This document shows, piece after piece, positions 416 through 32,754 of a stretch of DNA of 37,548 bases (the first letter of the stretch is position 1; each line of letters starts with the position of its first letter). The DNA comes from Promethearchaeota archaeon (GTDB taxonomy: Archaea; Asgardarchaeota; Lokiarchaeia; Sigyniarchaeales; SOKP01): contig JAGXOA010000017.1 in NCBI GenBank assembly GCA_019894715.1, positions 1 to 37,548 of the forward strand, written 5' to 3'. A program made the position numbers and the translations under genes. A model generated the notes under the pieces. It was not told the origin of the DNA. It ran no database searches and worked only from the letters and a program-made list of their open reading frames with translations.

Positions 416-817
416 GTGAACTATTTTAAGTATAAAGTAACTAAGAAGGGACGTTCTAAAGTTATTGAAGAAATTACCGAAGATAACAAGAAAAATCAAG
501 TTCAAGATGCTTTGGTACTTTTTGTCAGTATGGAAAAACAAGATGAAACAAGTTTAGAATTATTGAAAAGAGGAGTTATAGAAATAGAGAAAATAACAAA
601 TCTATTAAAAATTAAGAATATTGTCCTCATACCATTTGCTCATCTTTTTGGTAATCTAAGTACTTTAGAATTTGCTTTTGAGTCATTTAAAAAAATTGAA
701 TCAATCTTGAATTTAAAAGGTTATTCCGTACTAAGACTCCCTTTTGGATGGTTTAATGAATTAGAGATGAAAGCTAAAGGACATCCTCTTTCCAGAATCT
801 CAAGGATTATTGAATAA
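416..817 (+). CDS. Stand-alone archaeal threonyl-tRNA synthetase editing domain (5' end out of frame)
   Basis: The protein matches the N-terminal editing domain of archaeal ThrRS (tRNA-Thr_ED, a D-aminoacyl-tRNA deacylase-like fold), which hydrolyses Ser-tRNA(Thr). Visible family features are the strand and helix around PFAHL (residues 73-77), then LPFGWF and the terminal KGHPLS block. In full archaeal ThrRS a catalytic core follows; here a TAA ends the protein directly after the domain, so it is a free-standing editing factor, as in Crenarchaeota with split ThrRS. The GTG start at 416 omits the first beta strand. An ATG at 388 encodes exactly that strand (MAYKIFIISCE) one frame away, and skipping the C at 421 joins the two parts. 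So the real gene probably spans 388-817 with a one-base frameshift. The catalytic ThrRS is not in the window. Confidence 0.85.
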   Translation: MNYFKYKVTKKGRSKVIEEITEDNKKNQVQDALVLFVSMEKQDETSLELLKRGVIEIEKITNLLKIKNIVLIPFAHLFGNLSTLEFAFESFKKIESILNLKGYSVLRLPFGWFNELEMKAKGHPLSRISRIIE

Positions 818-2195: not shown

Positions 2196-2903
2196 CTATC
2201 GTGATTTTGGTAAGAAGGGCCATATAAGTGAAGCTAAAGCTCTAATATCTCTATTTTGAGTATAAACTATTCCTGGGCCAGTATATCGTATTACAAATCC
2301 TTCGCCCCCAAGAATGAAACTTTTCTTACCTCCAACCTTACTAACCTTATGCTGGATATTTGCTGAATATGCCATCATAATACTTGTGTCAACTAAAAAC
2401 TCTTGATCCTGTTTAATCTCATGCTTTTCAACCATTCCATACCCTCCAAGCCAAATATCCCCCTCTTTTTCTGCTGTAACTGTAGTCTGAAATAATCCTT
2501 CCCCTCCAAAAAATTGCTTTCCTGAAGCCTTAGTAGAAATAGCAATACCCATGGTACTACAAATATAACCATCTCGACTTAGAACCCATTTTTCGCCTTG
2601 TTTCAAATGTAAGTGAATAATATCTCCAGGAACACCATGTGAAAAAACAACTGTTCCTTGATTAGATCCTTCTGGTAATGAGAAATAATTCTGAAACATA
2701 GATTCTCCACTTAATGTTCTTTTTAATCCTTTCATTATTCCTCCAGAGGATTTGGTTGTCATTTGGATATGACCATCCATATAAATCATAGCTCCTCCTT
2801 CAGCAATGATGTCCTGACCTGGTTTATCAAGAGTAATTGCTACATGAGCAAAAGATGGGCTTCCTTTAATTTCATATTTTAAAATTGATTCATCTTTCAA
2901 CAT
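2196..2903 (-). CDS. AIM24 / TIGR00266 family protein
   Basis: A 235-residue all-beta protein matching the AIM24 family (TIGR00266, DUF124), named for yeast altered inheritance of mitochondria 24. Family marks seen here are the early EGGAMIYMDG block (about residues 35-44), the MFQNYF segment after a glycine-rich turn, FFGGEGLF near the middle and a second GGEGFVIRYTGPG block close to the end. The family forms a trimeric beta-prism whose biochemical role is unknown; it is usually cytosolic, and no signal peptide or TM segment is seen here. Length is normal for the family. The gene is monocistronic in appearance, with AT-rich spacers of about 190-200 bases on either side. Confidence 0.9.
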   Translation of the reverse strand: MLKDESILKYEIKGSPSFAHVAITLDKPGQDIIAEGGAMIYMDGHIQMTTKSSGGIMKGLKRTLSGESMFQNYFSLPEGSNQGTVVFSHGVPGDIIHLHLKQGEKWVLSRDGYICSTMGIAISTKASGKQFFGGEGLFQTTVTAEKEGDIWLGGYGMVEKHEIKQDQEFLVDTSIMMAYSANIQHKVSKVGGKKSFILGGEGFVIRYTGPGIVYTQNRDIRALASLIWPFLPKSR

Positions 2904-19724: not shown

Positions 19725-21053
19725 TTAATCATTGCTACTTGGAATTTTTGGTAAATTTCGTTTAGAGGAAGTTGTTTTAGAATTATTATTCCCTCTCCTT
19801 TTTAGAATCTCAACAGCATCTACATTATCTTTTTTATCATTAAAATAAATTCTAAATAAATGAGATGATAGGGAAATTATTTCTTTAGGAAACTTTTTTA
19901 CTAATGTCCATTCTTCTTCTTCTCTTTCTTCACCAAAAATCTCGATCTTTTTAGAGATGACACCATAAAGATTAAAACCAATTATTAAATTTTCTCTATG
20001 ATGATTTTCGGGAATATCTATATTAAGAATTTTTTTATCTATTGAAACATCATCAGTAGTTATTTTTAATGATGTTTTTTTCATCTCTGGTTTTCCTTTA
20101 CTGCTATTATCCGGCTTTAAAACCTCTAACGCATCAACAATTCCTTTTTTTGTGTTGAAATAAATTCTACATAGATAATTATCAAGACTATAGATACCTT
20201 TAGGAAGGTTTTTAACTTTTTCCCATTCTTTTTCCTCTACATCTTCTCCAAAAACATTTGTAATTTTAGAAACAGCACCATATAAAGATTCTCCAATAAT
20301 CAGGTTTTGTCTTTTGTATAGATTTGGTAATTCATTTGCAAGGATTTTTCTAATAACTTCTTTTTGATCTGATTTTGTTAACTTTTGAGTGGCAGATTTA
20401 TATTCTTTCATTGGTATAGACTTATGTGATGGACTTAATTGTTGACTAGTTTTATAGGATACGTCAATTCCCTTACTTTTCATCTCTTCCAATGCTGGTG
20501 AATAATATTCTTGATCTTCTTCTTTTTTAGTAGAGACATCATCGATTACTTGTCCTTTTATTACATTCATATCTTTTTCAATATTTCGAACATATCGCAT
20601 ATCCTCCAATTTTTCTTCTACTTCCATAGATTCTAATCTGAAAGTTTTAAGAAATTCTACAGGTTCATCACCTTGATCAACGGATACAATTTTACAGCGA
20701 TGAAATGCTGCATTTTTAATTAGTTCATCTTGAAGTTTGCTTGCTACTCTCGAACTAATAAATCTTTTTCGAACAGGAGATTTTGCACCTTTCCAAATAA
20801 ATATTCTTCTAACATCTTCTTTAACAATTACGAAGACTTGTTCAAGATGGAGGATTTCTTGCAAATTATTTTCATTGGCCTCTACCCTTTGCTCTTCTCC
20901 AGTCTCTAGAAGCTCATAAACCATGAAATTGTCATATTCAGTCATTTTTGGTATAGAAACAATTTTTTGTATAAAAATCTTCTTTAAACAAATATAAAAG
21001 TATGTAAATAAAAATTTTAGTAACTCAAAGAATTTATAATTCATTTTAATCAA
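19725..21053 (-). CDS. Gelsolin-domain protein with two tandem unrecognised domains
   Basis: Residues about 44-138 match a gelsolin/ADF-like domain: VYELLETGEE, the core strand FVIVKEDVRRIFIWKGAKS, the helix RKRFISSRVASKLQ, and KIVSVDQGDEPVEFLKTF. Gelsolins bind actin, and single-domain forms are known from Asgard archaea. A 90-residue charged linker leads to two copies of a 78-residue domain (236-313, 341-418) sharing ENLIIG-type, LYG(A/V)(V/I)SK, FGE, EEW and (C/F)RIYFN(D/T)KK...VDA(L/V)E(V/I)L(K). Start is uncertain: TTG 21053 or ATG 21044 adds a hydrophobic helix (FFELLKFLFTYFYICLKKIF) that could anchor the protein; ATG 20945 (MTEYDNFMVY) gives a soluble form. TATA-like elements exist for both. 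It is divergent from the phospholipid synthase gene. Confidence 0.82.
   Translation of the reverse strand: MIKMNYKFFELLKFLFTYFYICLKKIFIQKIVSIPKMTEYDNFMVYELLETGEEQRVEANENNLQEILHLEQVFVIVKEDVRRIFIWKGAKSPVRKRFISSRVASKLQDELIKNAAFHRCKIVSVDQGDEPVEFLKTFRLESMEVEEKLEDMRYVRNIEKDMNVIKGQVIDDVSTKKEEDQEYYSPALEEMKSKGIDVSYKTSQQLSPSHKSIPMKEYKSATQKLTKSDQKEVIRKILANELPNLYKRQNLIIGESLYGAVSKITNVFGEDVEEKEWEKVKNLPKGIYSLDNYLCRIYFNTKKGIVDALEVLKPDNSSKGKPEMKKTSLKITTDDVSIDKKILNIDIPENHHRENLIIGFNLYGVISKKIEIFGEEREEEEWTLVKKFPKEIISLSSHLFRIYFNDKKDNVDAVEILKRRGNNNSKTTSSKRNLPKIPSSND
19800..20348 (-). repeat. Two tandem copies of a 78-residue novel domain
   Basis: Copy A is coded by 20348-20115 and copy B by 20033-19800. They align without gaps over most of their length, with matching NLIIG, LYG, SK, FGE, EEW, FPK/LPK, LCRIYFN/LFRIYFN and VDA(L/V)E(V/I)LK. 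Divergence at DNA level shows the duplication is old. Confidence 0.75.
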
Positions 21054-21132: not shown

Positions 21133-21921
21133 ATGTCAAAAATTGTTAATCTATTAAAATTAAAAGATTACATCACCCTTACAGGTACAACTCTTGGCTT
21201 AATTGCTGTTCTTTTGGTTACTATTGGTGGACGTGCTTTTGTCTCTTTAGGATTTTTCTTATTAGCCTTTACTGTGGGGACGGATTTATTAGATGGATAT
21301 ATTGCTCGGAAAACAGGGACTATTAATGAAATAGGAAAACAATTAGATTCTCTAAATGATTCTTTAACTTTTGGAATTGCACCCGCAGTCCTTATGTTTC
21401 AAGGATTTCGAAGAATTGTTGATTCTTTAGATCCTTATGATTATATTTTATTAATTGCTTGTGTTATATTTGCACTATGTGCAATAATAAGATTAGCCCG
21501 ATTTAACATTTCTAATGCTCCAGGATATACAGGAATTCCAACACCTTTAAGTGCCTTATTAATGATAAATTTTTTTTATGCAAATTATTTTTTTGCAATC
21601 GCAGAAGGAGGAGGAGGATATCAAGCATATGATATTGCTTTTCCTTTCTTTTCATATATTTTGATTCCAATAATAATGATCTTTTTGGGTTGGACAAATA
21701 TTACAACAAGTATAAACTTTGGGGAGAAAGATAAGAAAATCTACAGGTATTTCATAGTATTTGCACCGCTCTGTCCTATTTTTGGTATAATTGGAATAAT
21801 AAATCCATCATTTGTCATAGCTGTGATTGTGAGTTTAGTATTTTTTATTTTTGTAATTATTGAAATCATTTACATTGCTTTTGGACTTATAACAACAAAA
21901 TTGAATAGAAATTCTGAGTAA
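21133..21921 (+). CDS. pssA: CDP-alcohol phosphatidyltransferase, PssA type (archaetidylserine synthase)
   Basis: The CDP-alcohol phosphatidyltransferase signature is complete: D51, D54-G55, A58-R59, G68, D72 and D76 in the order DxxDGxxAR-x8-GxxxDxxxD. Six to eight TM helices span the 262 residues. The following FGIAPAVLMF and RLARFNIS...GYTGIPTP are typical of the PssA (phosphatidylserine synthase) branch rather than PgsA. In an archaeon the substrate is probably CDP-archaeol, giving archaetidylserine at the membrane; substrate choice cannot be read from sequence. Divergent from the gelsolin gene with 79 bases between starts. Confidence 0.9.
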   Translation: MSKIVNLLKLKDYITLTGTTLGLIAVLLVTIGGRAFVSLGFFLLAFTVGTDLLDGYIARKTGTINEIGKQLDSLNDSLTFGIAPAVLMFQGFRRIVDSLDPYDYILLIACVIFALCAIIRLARFNISNAPGYTGIPTPLSALLMINFFYANYFFAIAEGGGGYQAYDIAFPFFSYILIPIIMIFLGWTNITTSINFGEKDKKIYRYFIVFAPLCPIFGIIGIINPSFVIAVIVSLVFFIFVIIEIIYIAFGLITTKLNRNSE

Positions 21922-22009: not shown

Positions 22010-23986
22010 TTATGTGAATAATCTATTCTTCCATTCCTCGATAGTCTTAAAGATATTATTCTTTTGCTCAGTTGTTAGTAACATTTTTTGCTTTTTATAG
22101 TCATTTATAAATCTTCTGATATTATGTAGAGTTACTGAAAATCCTCTTTTTTCTAAAATTAATTCAGTAATTTTATCTAATTCTTGAGCTATAGTTTCAC
22201 CTGATTGAATATTTATATTTTGTATTAAAGCATTAAATGCATCATTTATCATCATACCTGAAGCGTCCCCTGCTTTTGGATTAACCATTGATAAAAATTT
22301 TACTTGTTTACTTAAGGAAGATTGCGTCTTTTCGTCTTGAATTTGAGAAGAATATAGATTATCTTTATTTTCCCCAGAATTATTTGATTGTATTGGAATA
22401 TTTGGAACTTTTGGGCTTTCTGGATCACTTAATGGTGGTTTAGGAATTTCAGAACCTTGTAAAATAATCTTTTTATTGTCAATTATTCCCATATTTTGAG
22501 AGAGAGGTACATTGTTCATCTCTGGATAATTATATTTTTCTTCCCTAATTAATGTTTGATCTGATTCATATTTTGCATTAGACCATATTTTATATAAGGA
22601 AGGCTTTAATAGGTTAACAAGAATATTATTTTTTGATAAAATACCAATAAAATTATTGAGTTGGTCTTTATTTTCTGTAATTATACCGAAAGCTATGAAG
22701 TTATCATCAGATTTAACTCCTATAAAATTTTGATTATCATATTTTCGATATTCAAGATCATTAATTTCTTTAAATTTTTTGACTTTACTATTAACATGAG
22801 GATCAGAGGATGCAATTTTGATTCTTGTTGTTTTAGGTATTGTTTTAAGGATTTCCAGTTCTAAATAATCTTCTATTTTGGGTACAATTATTAATAATTC
22901 TTCTTTTGAGCTATTAATAGCAAACGACAAGTATTTTTGAATCTTGGTAATACTATTGATAGCTTGTGTTTTTTGTTTGATGTTTTGACCAGAGGAAACT
23001 GCTTTTAATTTTGATTCTGAGATTAGTGTAATAATTGGATTATTTAATTTTTCTATTTGTTTTATCGATTTTTGAATTATAGCACTTAATTTACTTATTA
23101 TTAGAGATTTAAGTTCATCAATATTTTGATCTAGACTTTGCTTTTTATCATTAATTACATCTGAGATCTTATTTATATCTATTTCAAAACTACTAAGTAA
23201 ATTTAAGAGTAACATTTTAAAATCGTCTCGTGAATGTATAGCATTTTCAATGATTTCATTAAATGGTACTTTACTAAACTCCTCTTTTATCATGGAATTT
23301 AGAGTATTTACAAAATCTTTTACTATGTTACCTAATTTATCTTTAAAAGTTTCTTCAAGTATTTGAAATAATAATTCTTCTTTCTTGGCTTTAATCTCTA
23401 AACCTCCTATTTTTGATTTTAGTTCTTCTTTAAGCTTGATAAATGTTTTTATTAGACTTGAGAATTGTGTTTGAGAAATATTTTTTATCATATTTTGAAT
23501 TTCTAATATTATATCACCAACCTTATGAATAACATCCATTTGATTAGATATATCTTCAGCATCTTTTTTTTGCAAGAGGCTATCTTCAATAAAATTATTT
23601 TCAATTTCTTTATATTCTTTGAGAATAGTATTAAACTCAATTTTATTATTCTTATTAAATATCTCATTTGTGGTTTTCACAATTAAACTATCCAGAGCAG
23701 ATCTGATTTCAGAAAAACTTGCTTCAATATTTTTAAAATAATCTAATATTGGATTATAAGGAGGAATTGCTAAAAACTCAGTTAATGATATATCTTTAAC
23801 AATATTTGTCTGGATTAATAATCCAGCATTAAGGAGTTCATTTAAATTCACAATTATGTCCTTTTCATTTATTTCTGGTAAAATTGAATTTAATTCTTGA
23901 AAAGATAAAACATCCTTCCCAAAAGATTCCAAATAGATTTTAATAGATTCCTCTGACAATTTTAATTGACTAAGTATTTTTTCCAT
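22010..23986 (-). CDS. TrmB-like winged-helix protein with long coiled coil and PLD/TrmB-like domain
   Basis: Residues 1-75 look like a TrmB-type winged helix (LKLSEESIKIYL, FQELNSILPEIN, LNELLNAGLLIQ). Residues about 80-335 are predicted to be almost all helix, with heptad-like Leu/Ile spacing and many Lys/Glu, giving a long coiled coil. Residues about 340-470 resemble the alpha-beta module after the TrmB winged helix (related to phospholipase-D-like folds): SSKEELLIIVPKIEDYLE, RIKIASSD, FIGVKSDDNFIAFG. A Pro-rich linker and a charged helical domain (about 570-658) finish the protein. I know no named family of this order. It may bind DNA or act as a scaffold. Divergent from the vWA genes over a 550-base gap. 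Confidence 0.65.
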   Translation of the reverse strand: MEKILSQLKLSEESIKIYLESFGKDVLSFQELNSILPEINEKDIIVNLNELLNAGLLIQTNIVKDISLTEFLAIPPYNPILDYFKNIEASFSEIRSALDSLIVKTTNEIFNKNNKIEFNTILKEYKEIENNFIEDSLLQKKDAEDISNQMDVIHKVGDIILEIQNMIKNISQTQFSSLIKTFIKLKEELKSKIGGLEIKAKKEELLFQILEETFKDKLGNIVKDFVNTLNSMIKEEFSKVPFNEIIENAIHSRDDFKMLLLNLLSSFEIDINKISDVINDKKQSLDQNIDELKSLIISKLSAIIQKSIKQIEKLNNPIITLISESKLKAVSSGQNIKQKTQAINSITKIQKYLSFAINSSKEELLIIVPKIEDYLELEILKTIPKTTRIKIASSDPHVNSKVKKFKEINDLEYRKYDNQNFIGVKSDDNFIAFGIITENKDQLNNFIGILSKNNILVNLLKPSLYKIWSNAKYESDQTLIREEKYNYPEMNNVPLSQNMGIIDNKKIILQGSEIPKPPLSDPESPKVPNIPIQSNNSGENKDNLYSSQIQDEKTQSSLSKQVKFLSMVNPKAGDASGMMINDAFNALIQNINIQSGETIAQELDKITELILEKRGFSVTLHNIRRFINDYKKQKMLLTTEQKNNIFKTIEEWKNRLFT

Positions 23987-24536: not shown

Positions 24537-25736
24537 TTGTCATCAGAAAAATATGAAGATGTATTTTTTTATTTAGATTTAGCAAAAGATTATATAAAAA
24601 AAAAATCATTATTAAGTTTAATAGAAGAATACATCGAAAAGAAAAGGAAATATAATTTAAAAGGTCAATTTGCTCTTTTATTTTTTAGTAATGATGATTT
24701 TCCAATTTTTAATAGTGATCAAAGTGACTCTGTCAAATTTTCTGAAACACTTGATTTAAATTGGAAGAATCGAACAACAATTAAATCTAATTTTGAAAAA
24801 GGATTATTTTATATCTTATCTTATGTAGCAGAGTCTATTAGAAAGAAATCAAAATCAAATAGAATTATAATTCTAACTGATACTCCAAGCGAACTTTCTG
24901 AAGGATATCAAGAAGCATTGTATGATCTTATTTCGAAAGTTAAATATTTTCCAACATTTATTGATGTTATTCGTGTGGTTGGAGAAGGTAAAAGATTTTT
25001 CAAAGATGATGTTAAATTAAATATCATTGCATCAGATACAAGAGGAGGAATCTTTTATACCCACGACAAGAAAGAATTAAAACTTGTTTTTAATCAACTT
25101 GTTAAGGTTAAAGAATTAGTGAATCTTTATTCTGATAGACCAGAACATATTGAGATAACTCAAGAAGATCTAATGTTTTATAGAAATTTATCAAAAAATT
25201 TAATAGAATCTGAAAGTAAAGAAGATTTAATGTGTAATTTGTGTAATAAAGAAATTTGTCCTATCTGCTCAGATGTTTATGATATACCCAAAAGCTGTGA
25301 GGAATGTGGCACATCATTTCATAACTGTTGTATTTTAGAGTATTCCGTAGAATTTAATATAGGAATACCATTTATTTTTAGATGCCCTAAATGTGGTATC
25401 TTATTAAAACTTAAAAAAGAGCAATTAGACAAAGAGGGAGAAGAAATAAAAAAAAAACTTTTTACAGAATCAAGAAAATTAGACAACTCTCGACCAACTA
25501 TTAATATTAAGGATAAGGAAAAACAGAGCTTTTATCAAGATAAAAAAGATACTAATTTGAATTTAGATGTTAAAGTAGAATTACCTCTGAAAATAATGAT
25601 TCCTGAACATAAATCTCAAAATCTACATATTGAAGATGATGATATAAAAATTATACGAGTTGGGGGATATTTTGGAAAATTATACAAAGTACGGAAAAAA
25701 GAAGGAAAATTATCTTATGAGAAATTTGCTCCATGA
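24537..25736 (+). CDS. vWA-domain protein with RING/PHD-like zinc finger (paralogue 1)
   Basis: Residues 7-190 form a von Willebrand A-like alpha-beta domain: FFYLDLAKDY at the first strand, NRIIILTDTPSE at the fourth, FIDVIRV at the fifth. The MIDAS motif DxSxS is degenerate (D-L-A-K-D at 14-18). A treble-clef finger follows: C233-x2-C236 then C241-x2-C244-x9-C254-x2-C257-x4-H262, C264/C265 and C283-x2-C286. This is the C4HC3 order of PHD or RING-like fingers. A charged linker leads to the VGGYFGK motif (375-381). TTG at 24537 is the start. Role unknown; vWA plus RING occurs in eukaryotic ubiquitin ligases (RGLG type), but no E2-binding evidence exists here. The paralogue lies 184 bases downstream. 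Confidence 0.75.
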   Translation: MSSEKYEDVFFYLDLAKDYIKKKSLLSLIEEYIEKKRKYNLKGQFALLFFSNDDFPIFNSDQSDSVKFSETLDLNWKNRTTIKSNFEKGLFYILSYVAESIRKKSKSNRIIILTDTPSELSEGYQEALYDLISKVKYFPTFIDVIRVVGEGKRFFKDDVKLNIIASDTRGGIFYTHDKKELKLVFNQLVKVKELVNLYSDRPEHIEITQEDLMFYRNLSKNLIESESKEDLMCNLCNKEICPICSDVYDIPKSCEECGTSFHNCCILEYSVEFNIGIPFIFRCPKCGILLKLKKEQLDKEGEEIKKKLFTESRKLDNSRPTINIKDKEKQSFYQDKKDTNLNLDVKVELPLKIMIPEHKSQNLHIEDDDIKIIRVGGYFGKLYKVRKKEGKLSYEKFAP

Positions 25737-25920
25737 TTTGAAAATATTTTTTATATGAATGTAATAGGATTATTATGAATTAAAATAAATTTTTAAATAA
25801 AAATAAATAAGAATTCTTTTTTATTGTTCCTAAATGAAAATTTATTATTTTTTCATTGATGAAAAAGAAAGATTTTATGGTTAAATTATAATCAATATCA
25901 AACCAAGGATATAACATAAT

Positions 25921-27153
25921 ATGATAGTTGGTAATAAAAAAACTTTAGATTCAAAAGAAATTATATTCTACTTAGATTTATCAACAGATTTCCTAAAAAA
26001 AAAAATATTGATAAAAAGTATTAAATCATTTATTGATGGGAATGATAAATCAAATAAGTGTACCTATGGATTTGTTATCTTTAAGAAGGGAAAGGAGGTT
26101 TTTAGTGTTTATGATAAAGAACCTTCATTTATATTTGAAAGAATTGAAGATATTTGGGAGGAAAAAGAAGAAGGTATAAGTTATTTTGAAAATGGCCTTT
26201 ATGAAACATTAGCTCATATTTTTAAGAGAAGTAGAACATATCCTAAGATTTATAGAATTATTGTAATTTCTGATACTCCAAGTACACAATCAGAAGATTA
26301 TCATACTGCCCTTTATAATTTAGTATTAAAAGCTAAGAATTTTCATACATTTATTGATATAATCCGTATTGGAGAAGATAAATTCTATGAAGATGATGTA
26401 AAGCTAAAAGTAATAACAAGTGAGACTTTTGGTGGAACTCTTTATTGTAATGATAGTAAACAATTTCCTAATTACTTAAATTCACTAATAAGGAGCAAAA
26501 GTGAATTTAATTTAATTCAATCAGAATCTAGCAAGATATTAGAGAATGAACATACTTTTTATGATAAATTAGCAACTGATCTTATCACTCTTTCTCCTGA
26601 TGATAAAAACGAGTGTATCTTATGTGAACAAAAAGTGTGTCCAATATGTGAAGCATATAGTGATGAAGTTCATAAATGTTATAATTGTAATAGTCCTTAT
26701 CACAGCTGTTGTGCAACAGAATATTCAATAGTTAATAATATAGGTTTACCATATATCTTTCGATGTCCTAAATGTAGTGCTATTTTAAAGTTAGATAAAG
26801 ATTTTGTAGATATGGTTTTAGAAGAAAAATCAGAGACAGATAAGGAAGAAATTGAAGAGGATCAAATTTTAGAAGGGCTAATTATAAAAGAATCTGAAGA
26901 AGATTCTGAACAAGATATTCCTAAGATAGTACAGAAAAAAGTTAAAGTTGGAGGTTTTTTTGGTAAAGAAATTACAATAAATGCAAATTCTACAAAAAAT
27001 AGAAATAATAAACCTAGTGAGAATAAAAATAGTGTTTCAATTACCGCTTTAAAGCCTCCAAGATCAAGGAAATCAATAATATTATGCTCTATTTGTGGCG
27101 CTACAGTAAAGGATTCACTTATATGTCCTGTATGTGGATCAACGATTAATTAA
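25921..27153 (+). CDS. vWA-domain protein with RING/PHD-like finger and zinc ribbon (paralogue 2)
   Basis: Same design as the gene before it: vWA residues 12-190 (IIFYLDLSTDF, YRIIVISDTPST, FIDIIRIG, ITSETFGGTLY), with D-L-S-T-D at 19-23 closer to a MIDAS but still lacking the second Ser. The finger is C232-x2-C235, C240-x2-C243-x9-C253-x2-C256-x4-H261, C263/C264, C282-x2-C285. The acidic linker holds VGGFFGK (343-349), shared with paralogue 1 although the surrounding sequence is not. Unlike paralogue 1 it ends in an extra zinc ribbon, C389-x2-C392-x9-C402-x2-C405. The pair arose by tandem duplication and has diverged strongly. Clear ATG start at 25921. Confidence 0.75.
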   Translation: MIVGNKKTLDSKEIIFYLDLSTDFLKKKILIKSIKSFIDGNDKSNKCTYGFVIFKKGKEVFSVYDKEPSFIFERIEDIWEEKEEGISYFENGLYETLAHIFKRSRTYPKIYRIIVISDTPSTQSEDYHTALYNLVLKAKNFHTFIDIIRIGEDKFYEDDVKLKVITSETFGGTLYCNDSKQFPNYLNSLIRSKSEFNLIQSESSKILENEHTFYDKLATDLITLSPDDKNECILCEQKVCPICEAYSDEVHKCYNCNSPYHSCCATEYSIVNNIGLPYIFRCPKCSAILKLDKDFVDMVLEEKSETDKEEIEEDQILEGLIIKESEEDSEQDIPKIVQKKVKVGGFFGKEITINANSTKNRNNKPSENKNSVSITALKPPRSRKSIILCSICGATVKDSLICPVCGSTIN

Positions 27154-31812: not shown

Positions 31813-32754
31813 ATGTGTTTTTTCTTTATGGAAATAAAGTTTAAACTATTATCTAAAAAAATGCCCTTTTCCGATAAAATAACAATATTATTTGATTTAT
31901 CTCATAATGAAATGCTAAATCTTTGTGAAAAAGAGTTTTCTGATTTTTTAAGTCTATTAGAAATGCTTAATCTAAAAATAATTAAGAATGAAAGCAATGA
32001 AATAAGTAAAGGTATATTAAAAAATATTGATATCCTTGTTATTGGTAATCCAATTAATGATTTCTTTTCAAATATAGAAATTGAAAATATATTAAATTAT
32101 GTAAGAACTGGAGGATCCCTTTTTTTAATTAGTGAATATGGAGGAGATTATCTTCAAAAGACAAATTTAAATGATATATCTGGAAATTTTTTTAATATTC
32201 TTTTTGAAGATAATATTGTTAAAGATGAAAATCAGAGAAATATAAACTGTTCAAGTATTTTATCAGTCAATTCTTTTCCAAATCATAAAATAACATCTCA
32301 ATTACGAGAGATTATAATTGGTGGCTCATGCTCATTATTATTGAGGGATAATGCAACAACATTACTTAAATTAAATGATTCCGCTTGGGCTGAGAAATAT
32401 GATGATAATACTAATGAATGGGAAAAAAAAACCGAGAAAAATAAATTTATAATAAGTGCGTGTTCTAAATTTGGACAAGGAAAAATAATAACTTTAGGAG
32501 ATATTGATATATTCACTAACGATCCAAATATTGGTATTAATAAGAAGGATAATAAGAAATTCATAACAAACATTATAAATTGGTTAATGAAACCAAGTGA
32601 TGAGTCTGATGTGATTTACTGGACGTTAAAAAGATTATCATCAATGGAAAAACAAATTAAAACTATGGGGCTTAAAATTAGCAATATAATTGAAACAATA
32701 ACAATTTTAGAGAAAAGAATTTCTAAAATAGAAAATGGAGTTATTACTAAATAA
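31813..32754 (+). CDS. GIFT/GldG-like (IFT52-like, DUF4350-type) protein with C-terminal coiled coil
   Basis: From residue 17 the protein reads as a GIFT/GldG-type flavodoxin-like domain: KITILFDLSHNEML, a DILVIGNP strand, NYVRTGGSLFLISEYGGD, then FSPxH-like HKITSQLREI and FGQGKIITLGDIDIF. That domain occurs in IFT52 of eukaryotic intraflagellar transport and in bacterial gliding/ABC-type proteins. Residues 275-313 form a short coiled coil. The start given includes 16 hydrophobic and basic residues; the ATG at 31861 (MPFSDKIT) is more likely. Next gene is tldD, 68 bases on. Confidence 0.65.
   Translation: MCFFFMEIKFKLLSKKMPFSDKITILFDLSHNEMLNLCEKEFSDFLSLLEMLNLKIIKNESNEISKGILKNIDILVIGNPINDFFSNIEIENILNYVRTGGSLFLISEYGGDYLQKTNLNDISGNFFNILFEDNIVKDENQRNINCSSILSVNSFPNHKITSQLREIIIGGSCSLLLRDNATTLLKLNDSAWAEKYDDNTNEWEKKTEKNKFIISACSKFGQGKIITLGDIDIFTNDPNIGINKKDNKKFITNIINWLMKPSDESDVIYWTLKRLSSMEKQIKTMGLKISNIIETITILEKRISKIENGVITK

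Follow-up and report, generated by a model that had tools for sequence, protein, structure and literature searches.

The window analysed here, a stretch of 37,548 nucleotides of contig JAGXOA010000017.1 from a Promethearchaeota archaeon of the class Lokiarchaeia, contains two neighbouring genes whose products, A and B, are best read as members, specific to their lineage and without a MIDAS, of a Lokiarchaeial family whose intracellular proteins combine a vWA domain with a PHD/RING-like cross-brace finger. The two proteins belong to the vWA fold family, carry invariant zinc ligands, have lost the MIDAS, represent a duplication that has become fixed and is held under purifying selection, and keep conserved neighbours. 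As to their function, we infer paired scaffold subunits that would work independently of metal in the manner of p44 and p34 of TFIIH, a reading to which we give a probability of about one in two.

The tandem gene pair

Protein A (399 aa, TTG start; 24537..25736, plus strand) consists of a vWA domain, a C4HC3 finger and a linker with the motif VGGYFG, while protein B (410 aa, ATG start; 25921..27153, plus strand) has the same order with VGGFFG in the linker and adds a C-terminal C4 ribbon. Both open reading frames had been placed exactly in the first-pass annotation. The genes lie in tandem on the same strand, separated by 184 bp, and sequence comparison identified the products as paralogues with 39% identity over 298 aa (E=1e-58). 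The linker motif is conserved in A and B as VGG[FY]FG. The ribbon of B (CxxC...CPxCG; 27082..27138, plus strand) matched Pfam Zn_ribbon_3 with E=0.0016, which is below the cut-off, and is kept in the B orthologues; a ribbon of this kind, found at the C-terminus of other A orthologues, is missing from the A of the window and of the sister genome.

The family was assembled by iterated profile searching from about 40 loci and then aligned. The resulting tree, with 78 members, places A orthologues (n=14) and B orthologues (n=16) in separate clades, each with 100% SH-aLRT support, and also resolves alpha, beta and C60-like groups. A third, more distant paralogue of A and B lies on contig C60 of the window's genome. 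At all 14 loci that have both genes, A and B stand in tandem on one strand. Measured against a genome of the same genus, dN/dS is about 0.18-0.22 for both genes, which indicates that both are under purifying selection and that both copies are kept. An A:B pair is plausible, because two diverged copies have been fixed in separate, fully supported clades.

In the model scan, A and B reached no Pfam or NCBIfam family and no vWA model, and the vWA-finger family as a whole has no entry in Pfam, NCBIfam or PADLOC. A role in anti-phage defence was rejected, as A, B, the neighbouring protein c2 and the paralogues have no PADLOC match. A viral origin was likewise rejected, the best BFVD matches of the A model being generic vWA and RING proteins only.

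The vWA domain and the loss of the MIDAS

The vWA domain of A (about aa 7-192; 24555..25112, plus strand) was delimited from an AlphaFold2 model, Foldseek searches and the motif table. The model, computed from a six-sequence alignment with no templates, is of moderate quality, with a mean pLDDT of 61.7 and about 50-67 in the finger. Residues 5-190 follow the alternating beta/alpha order of a vWA domain, mostly at pLDDT 65-90, and vWA proteins are the best Foldseek matches, in agreement with the vWA fold first assigned to both proteins. The MIDAS had been called degenerate, and so it is: in the A and B clades the motif DxSxS is replaced by D14-x-T/A/S-x-D/E/N, with D-L-T/A-K-D/E/N in the A clade and mostly D-L-S/T-T-D/N in the B clade, whereas older relatives of A and B have an intact site, DxSRS. 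In A itself the site reads D14-L-A-K-D18, and D115 is retained. Judged by the model, A and B belong to the vWA superfamily, with a predicted Rossmann-like alternating beta/alpha fold from which the MIDAS residues have been lost.

The C4HC3 finger

The finger of A (25233..25394, plus strand) has the ligands C233, C236, C254, C257, H262, C265, C283 and C286, with an accessory CPxC at 241/244, and that of B (aa 232-285; 26614..26775, plus strand) was placed with the motif table and the finger alignment. When 31 diverse fingers were aligned, the only columns without variation were those of the eight ligands C,C,C,C,H,C,C,C, and the finger is therefore not a product of chance. A generic zinc ribbon, with two CxxC knuckles only, is excluded by these eight invariant ligands in C4HC3 order. 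The first-pass annotation was thus right about the C4HC3 finger but not about its first ligand pair, for which it took C241-x2-C244, with nine residues to C254, instead of C233-x2-C236; the spacing in the family is C-x2-C-x17-C-x2-C-x4-H-x2-C-x17-C-x2-C. C241/C244 is regarded here as an accessory pair, since all of the A and B clades and some other members have it, but the C60-like and alpha clades and part of the beta clades mostly lack it.

A profile search of the finger, a check that had been named beforehand, returned among solved structures PHD fingers (MTF2 5.6e-5, KMT2D, DPF3), the RING-like domain of Nse1 (2e-4), Doa10 and FANCL, and not zinc ribbons. These best matches are eukaryotic, and the combination of a vWA domain with a RING/PHD-type finger is, as proposed, a eukaryote-like pairing. 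With its spacing C-x2-C-x4-H-x2-C, the finger follows the PHD/Nse1 pattern of ligands and not that of a RING.

Distribution of the family and the canonical members alpha and beta

The vWA-finger family is present in 49 of 58 sampled relatives. Its canonical members, of which there are two per genome (alpha on contig C65 and beta on contig C127 in the genome of the window), are about 395 aa long and share the motif DxSRSMxRxDxxPxR, a C4HC3 finger and a second, C-terminal C4HC3 finger. PF04056 (Ssl1, the vWA domain of TFIIH p44) was found above its cut-off in 51 of the 58 relatives, usually in a pair of proteins each about 400 aa long. Ssl1 is matched by every one of the 19 canonical members, eight of which match Tfb4/p34 as well. 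Across 196 Asgard genomes Ssl1 exceeds the cut-off in 54, every one in the class of the window, as opposed to none of 14 control genomes, although 12 of these carry VWA_2 proteins. The genome of the window encodes seven VWA_2 proteins, and Ssl1 is matched by alpha and beta only.

Within the Asgard classes sampled, the family was not found outside the class of the window. An apparent out-of-class match (G105/G062) was discarded, since G105, the one that was read, is a generic vWA protein without fingers. That the family is missing from the other sampled Asgard classes argues against a simple vertical descent to eukaryotes.

The second finger of alpha, C-x2-C-x12-C-x2-C-x4-H-x2-C-x10-C-x2-C, differs in spacing from the RING of human p44, as aligned, by one residue and by one ligand type. 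The best matches of the second finger of alpha and beta are RING-H2 E3 ligases (Arkadia, 1.6e-6), and the C4C4 RING of p44 is not among them. At nine loci (e.g., L084:767-1966) a Gtr1/RagA-type GTPase with an N-terminal extension adjoins the beta-type gene in divergent orientation. Longer members of 608-619 aa also occur (L070:8860-10683, L101:8719-10578), and the C-terminal end of the former matches a PCI domain (5e-5), an unusual vWA-finger-PCI fusion.

Resemblance to TFIIH p44/Ssl1, p34 and Rpn10

The comparison with p44, a core subunit of the eukaryotic transcription and DNA-repair factor TFIIH, was well chosen in the first-pass annotation: profile searches, a search with p44 as the query and Foldseek of A all connect the family with this protein. 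A profile led by A and B (A1) gave Rpn10 (2e-5) and p44 (6e-5) as top matches in the PDB, and the canonical profile (A4) gave Rpn10 at 1.2e-18 and p44 at 3.7e-16, with MERIT40 and p34 lower in some of the searches. In the reverse direction, the vWA domain of human p44, used as a single query against the 196 Asgard genomes, retrieved almost only the vWA-finger family (best match 1.9e-10, 33% identity), and the vWA domain of human Rpn10 had much the same outcome, with essentially this family only. A vWA model of alpha and beta scored p44 at 67 bits and Rpn10 at 65-72 bits, whereas unrelated vWA proteins encoded in the genome of the window reached no more than 29 bits. The bacterial vWA protein 4rck is nearly level with p44 in the A4 search (3.3e-15) and BatB is also close, so that the vWA domain does not single out p44.

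A vWA model built from A and B only did not detect p44, and both proteins remain below the curated cut-off of Ssl1 (PF04056). Profile A4 recovers both, B scoring 1.2e-22 and A 3.1e-11, and the link of A and B to p44 runs through their family. In the Foldseek search of the A model against the PDB, ranks 1-16 are all p44/Ssl1 structures, with E-values down to 2.9e-9 and alignments of mostly about 320-360 columns that cover both domains; the rmsd over the full length is about 23 A, and because it is this large the relative placement of the domains is unmatched to p44. Structures containing only the vWA domain of p44 rank only slightly above integrin I domains in the search with the A model.

A C-terminal C4C4 RING of the p44 type was seen neither in A, which has no C-terminal finger, nor in B, which has a C4 ribbon, nor in alpha and beta, whose finger there is of the C4HC3 type with a spacing like that of p44. 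The Tfb4 (p34) model found no match in the genome of the window, but the controls gave none either, which leaves this search uninformative. The genome does encode helicases of the XPD type. A literature search, with preprints and supplements outside its range, found no paper that links Asgard archaea with TFIIH p44 or with vWA-RING proteins.

Gene neighbourhood

The pair belongs to a block of genes that stays together at 15-18 loci in nine genera of the GTDB family of the window. The divergent neighbour c2 (22010..23986, minus strand), a protein of 658 aa with a TrmB-like winged helix and a long coiled coil, is found at 18 of 18 sampled loci of this family, in which it is concentrated; its structure model, with a mean pLDDT of 48, is too poor for a fold comparison. 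Further upstream are c1 (21133..21921, plus strand; 18 loci), a PssA-like CDP-alcohol phosphatidyltransferase (PF01066 8e-15, pssA 1e-26), and c3 (19725..21053, minus strand; 17 loci), a gelsolin-repeat protein with a C-terminal extension (PF00626 0.0067, orthologue 8e-4). A fourth gene, c4, which encodes a zinc ribbon and a scramblase/tubby-like LOR domain (5e-9), occurs at L036:4519-5208 and 14 other loci and is missing from the window. The genes past B are shuffled between loci, and the block is absent from relatives outside the GTDB family. A functional linkage is only suggested and the synteny may be passive, because it extends at 6-9 loci to unrelated upstream metabolic genes (aldolase and others) and because the genes of the block point in different directions and do not form one operon.

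The neighbourhood check was divided in its outcome: the block is conserved, but the neighbours scanned, which were not every neighbour of each locus, included no gene for ubiquitin, E1, E2 or ESCRT proteins close to A and B. Two E2-like (UQ_con) proteins above the Pfam cut-off are encoded elsewhere in the genome (G000:C216:926-1336, G000:C7:11727-12203), on contigs unlinked to those of the vWA family, and a direct ubiquitin or ESCRT link is not supported. The membrane-remodelling role proposed in the first-pass annotation draws no more than circumstantial support from the gelsolin-like, LOR-scramblase-like and PssA-like neighbours.

Three other genes of the window were recorded. An IFT52 GIFT domain, an intraflagellar-transport fold associated with eukaryotes, exceeds its Pfam cut-off at 31813-32754 (plus strand, 1.4e-12); a protein of the AIM24 (mitochondrial biogenesis) family is encoded at 2196-2903 (minus strand, 4e-56); and a 133-aa stretch of open reading frame at 416-817 (plus strand) matches the editing domain of archaeal threonyl-tRNA synthetase (3.7e-31).

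Proposed role and alternative explanations

In TFIIH, the vWA domain of p34, which is without a complete MIDAS, binds the C-terminal C4C4 RING of p44; the two subunits interlock via their zinc fingers, and the vWA domain of p44 contacts XPD (PMC4094531, PMC6422496). By analogy, the vWA domains of A and B would have lost metal-dependent ligand binding and would act as rigid docking faces, while the finger and the C-terminal ribbon would provide further protein-protein contacts. A and B would then associate with each other, much as vWA-RING and zinc-finger contacts join p44 to p34, and would together build the scaffold of a complex whose role may be tied to the neighbouring lipid and actin genes.

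The likeness to p44 could also be convergent, if in Lokiarchaeia a generic prokaryotic vWA domain had acquired its treble-clef fingers independently, without any history shared with TFIIH. This is quite possible, if short of even odds, and is compatible with a scaffold function. The near-equal scores of 4rck and BatB, the restriction of the family to one Asgard class and a second finger that resembles RING-H2 and not the C4C4 RING of p44 are in its favour, whereas the 54 genomes with Ssl1 matches against 0/14 controls, 12 of them with vWA proteins, the domain order of p44 at nearly equal length and the small difference in spacing between the second finger of alpha and that of p44 argue against it. 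The furthest-reaching reading would be that the p44/p34 core of TFIIH has its archaeal counterpart in Lokiarchaeia. This scaffold of vWA domains and cross-brace fingers, anciently duplicated and represented by alpha/beta and by A/B as a derived pair, would have been the source or sister of the eukaryotic p44/p34 and Rpn10 vWA subunits and would have been partly recruited to a lipid/actin-linked complex; we consider this unlikely.

Two further explanations assign A and B a more specific task. As cytoplasmic adaptors of a membrane-lipid and actin module, they would join the phospholipid metabolism of the PssA-like and LOR/scramblase-like proteins to a gelsolin-like actin regulator. The gelsolin-like (17 loci), LOR (15), PssA-like (18) and c2 (18) genes stay beside the pair across nine genera while those past B are shuffled, the LOR and pssA models are matched at 5e-9 and 1e-26, and Loki gelsolins act on actin (PMC9433394). 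The differing gene directions, the inclusion of plainly unrelated genes in the synteny, the absence of the block outside the GTDB family and the missing LOR gene in the window speak against such a module, which is unlikely overall. Alternatively, A and B, or alpha and beta, could be E3-type adaptors of a Lokiarchaeal ubiquitin-like system, with an E2 recruited by the finger and the substrate or ubiquitin held by the vWA domain, after the manner of RGLG ligases or Rpn10. The matches of the first finger to the RING variants of Nse1, Doa10 and FANCL, those of the second finger of alpha and beta to Arkadia and other RING-H2 E3 ligases, the two E2-like proteins and the position of Rpn10 as best PDB match of the vWA profile are consistent with this. 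It nevertheless appears improbable, given that the neighbours examined include no gene for an E2, E1, ubiquitin-like or ESCRT protein, that the ligand spacing is PHD/Nse1-like and not that of a RING, and that A and B are without the second, RING-H2-like finger.

Archaeal NER-type helicases (XPD, XPB-like) are known, and the non-catalytic subunits of TFIIH are generally regarded as specific to eukaryotes. A widespread Lokiarchaeial family with an Ssl1-type vWA domain and paired PHD/RING-like fingers offers a testable candidate ancestry for the scaffold subunits of TFIIH and for Rpn10, and indicates that scaffolds of the vWA-finger type had diversified in Asgard archaea earlier than eukaryotes or in parallel with them.

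Comparison with known systems

The RGLG/copine E3 ligases resemble A and B in combining a vWA domain with a RING-type finger, but the spacing of their finger differs, and a relationship to them is not indicated; no similarity signal was found, and these ligases are not among the best PDB matches. The PHD (PF00628) and the RING-like domain of Nse1 (PF08746) have the same ligand order as the finger of A and B, C-x2-C-x(n)-C-x2-C-x4-H-x2-C-x(n)-C-x2-C; the latter scores below both Pfam cut-offs, and no chromatin context is known for A and B. Rpn10/S5a of the 26S proteasome is the closest vWA protein by profile score, but it has no fingers, unlike the A/B family, in which no UIM was seen by eye.

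Like p44/Ssl1 (GTF2H2), the canonical members are cytoplasmic proteins of about 395 aa with a vWA domain followed by zinc fingers and a match to the Ssl1 model, and the layout of p44, with a middle zinc finger and a C-terminal RING-like finger, is close to that of alpha and beta. A and B share the degenerate MIDAS with p34/Tfb4, and with p44/p34 the presence of two paralogous vWA-zinc proteins per system. They differ from p44 in having a C4HC3 PHD-like finger and a C4 ribbon instead of the eZnF and the C4C4 RING, in lacking the N-terminal XPB-binding extension, and in having no TFIIH gene neighbours. Because A and B fall below the Ssl1 cut-off, 4rck is nearly level with p44, the second finger is RING-H2-like, the family is confined to one class and the rmsd is large, they are not assigned as orthologues of p44. 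By their vWA domain alpha and beta are most similar to p44/Ssl1 and Rpn10, and by their overall layout to p44; A and B look, and probably work, like a scaffold of the p44 kind.
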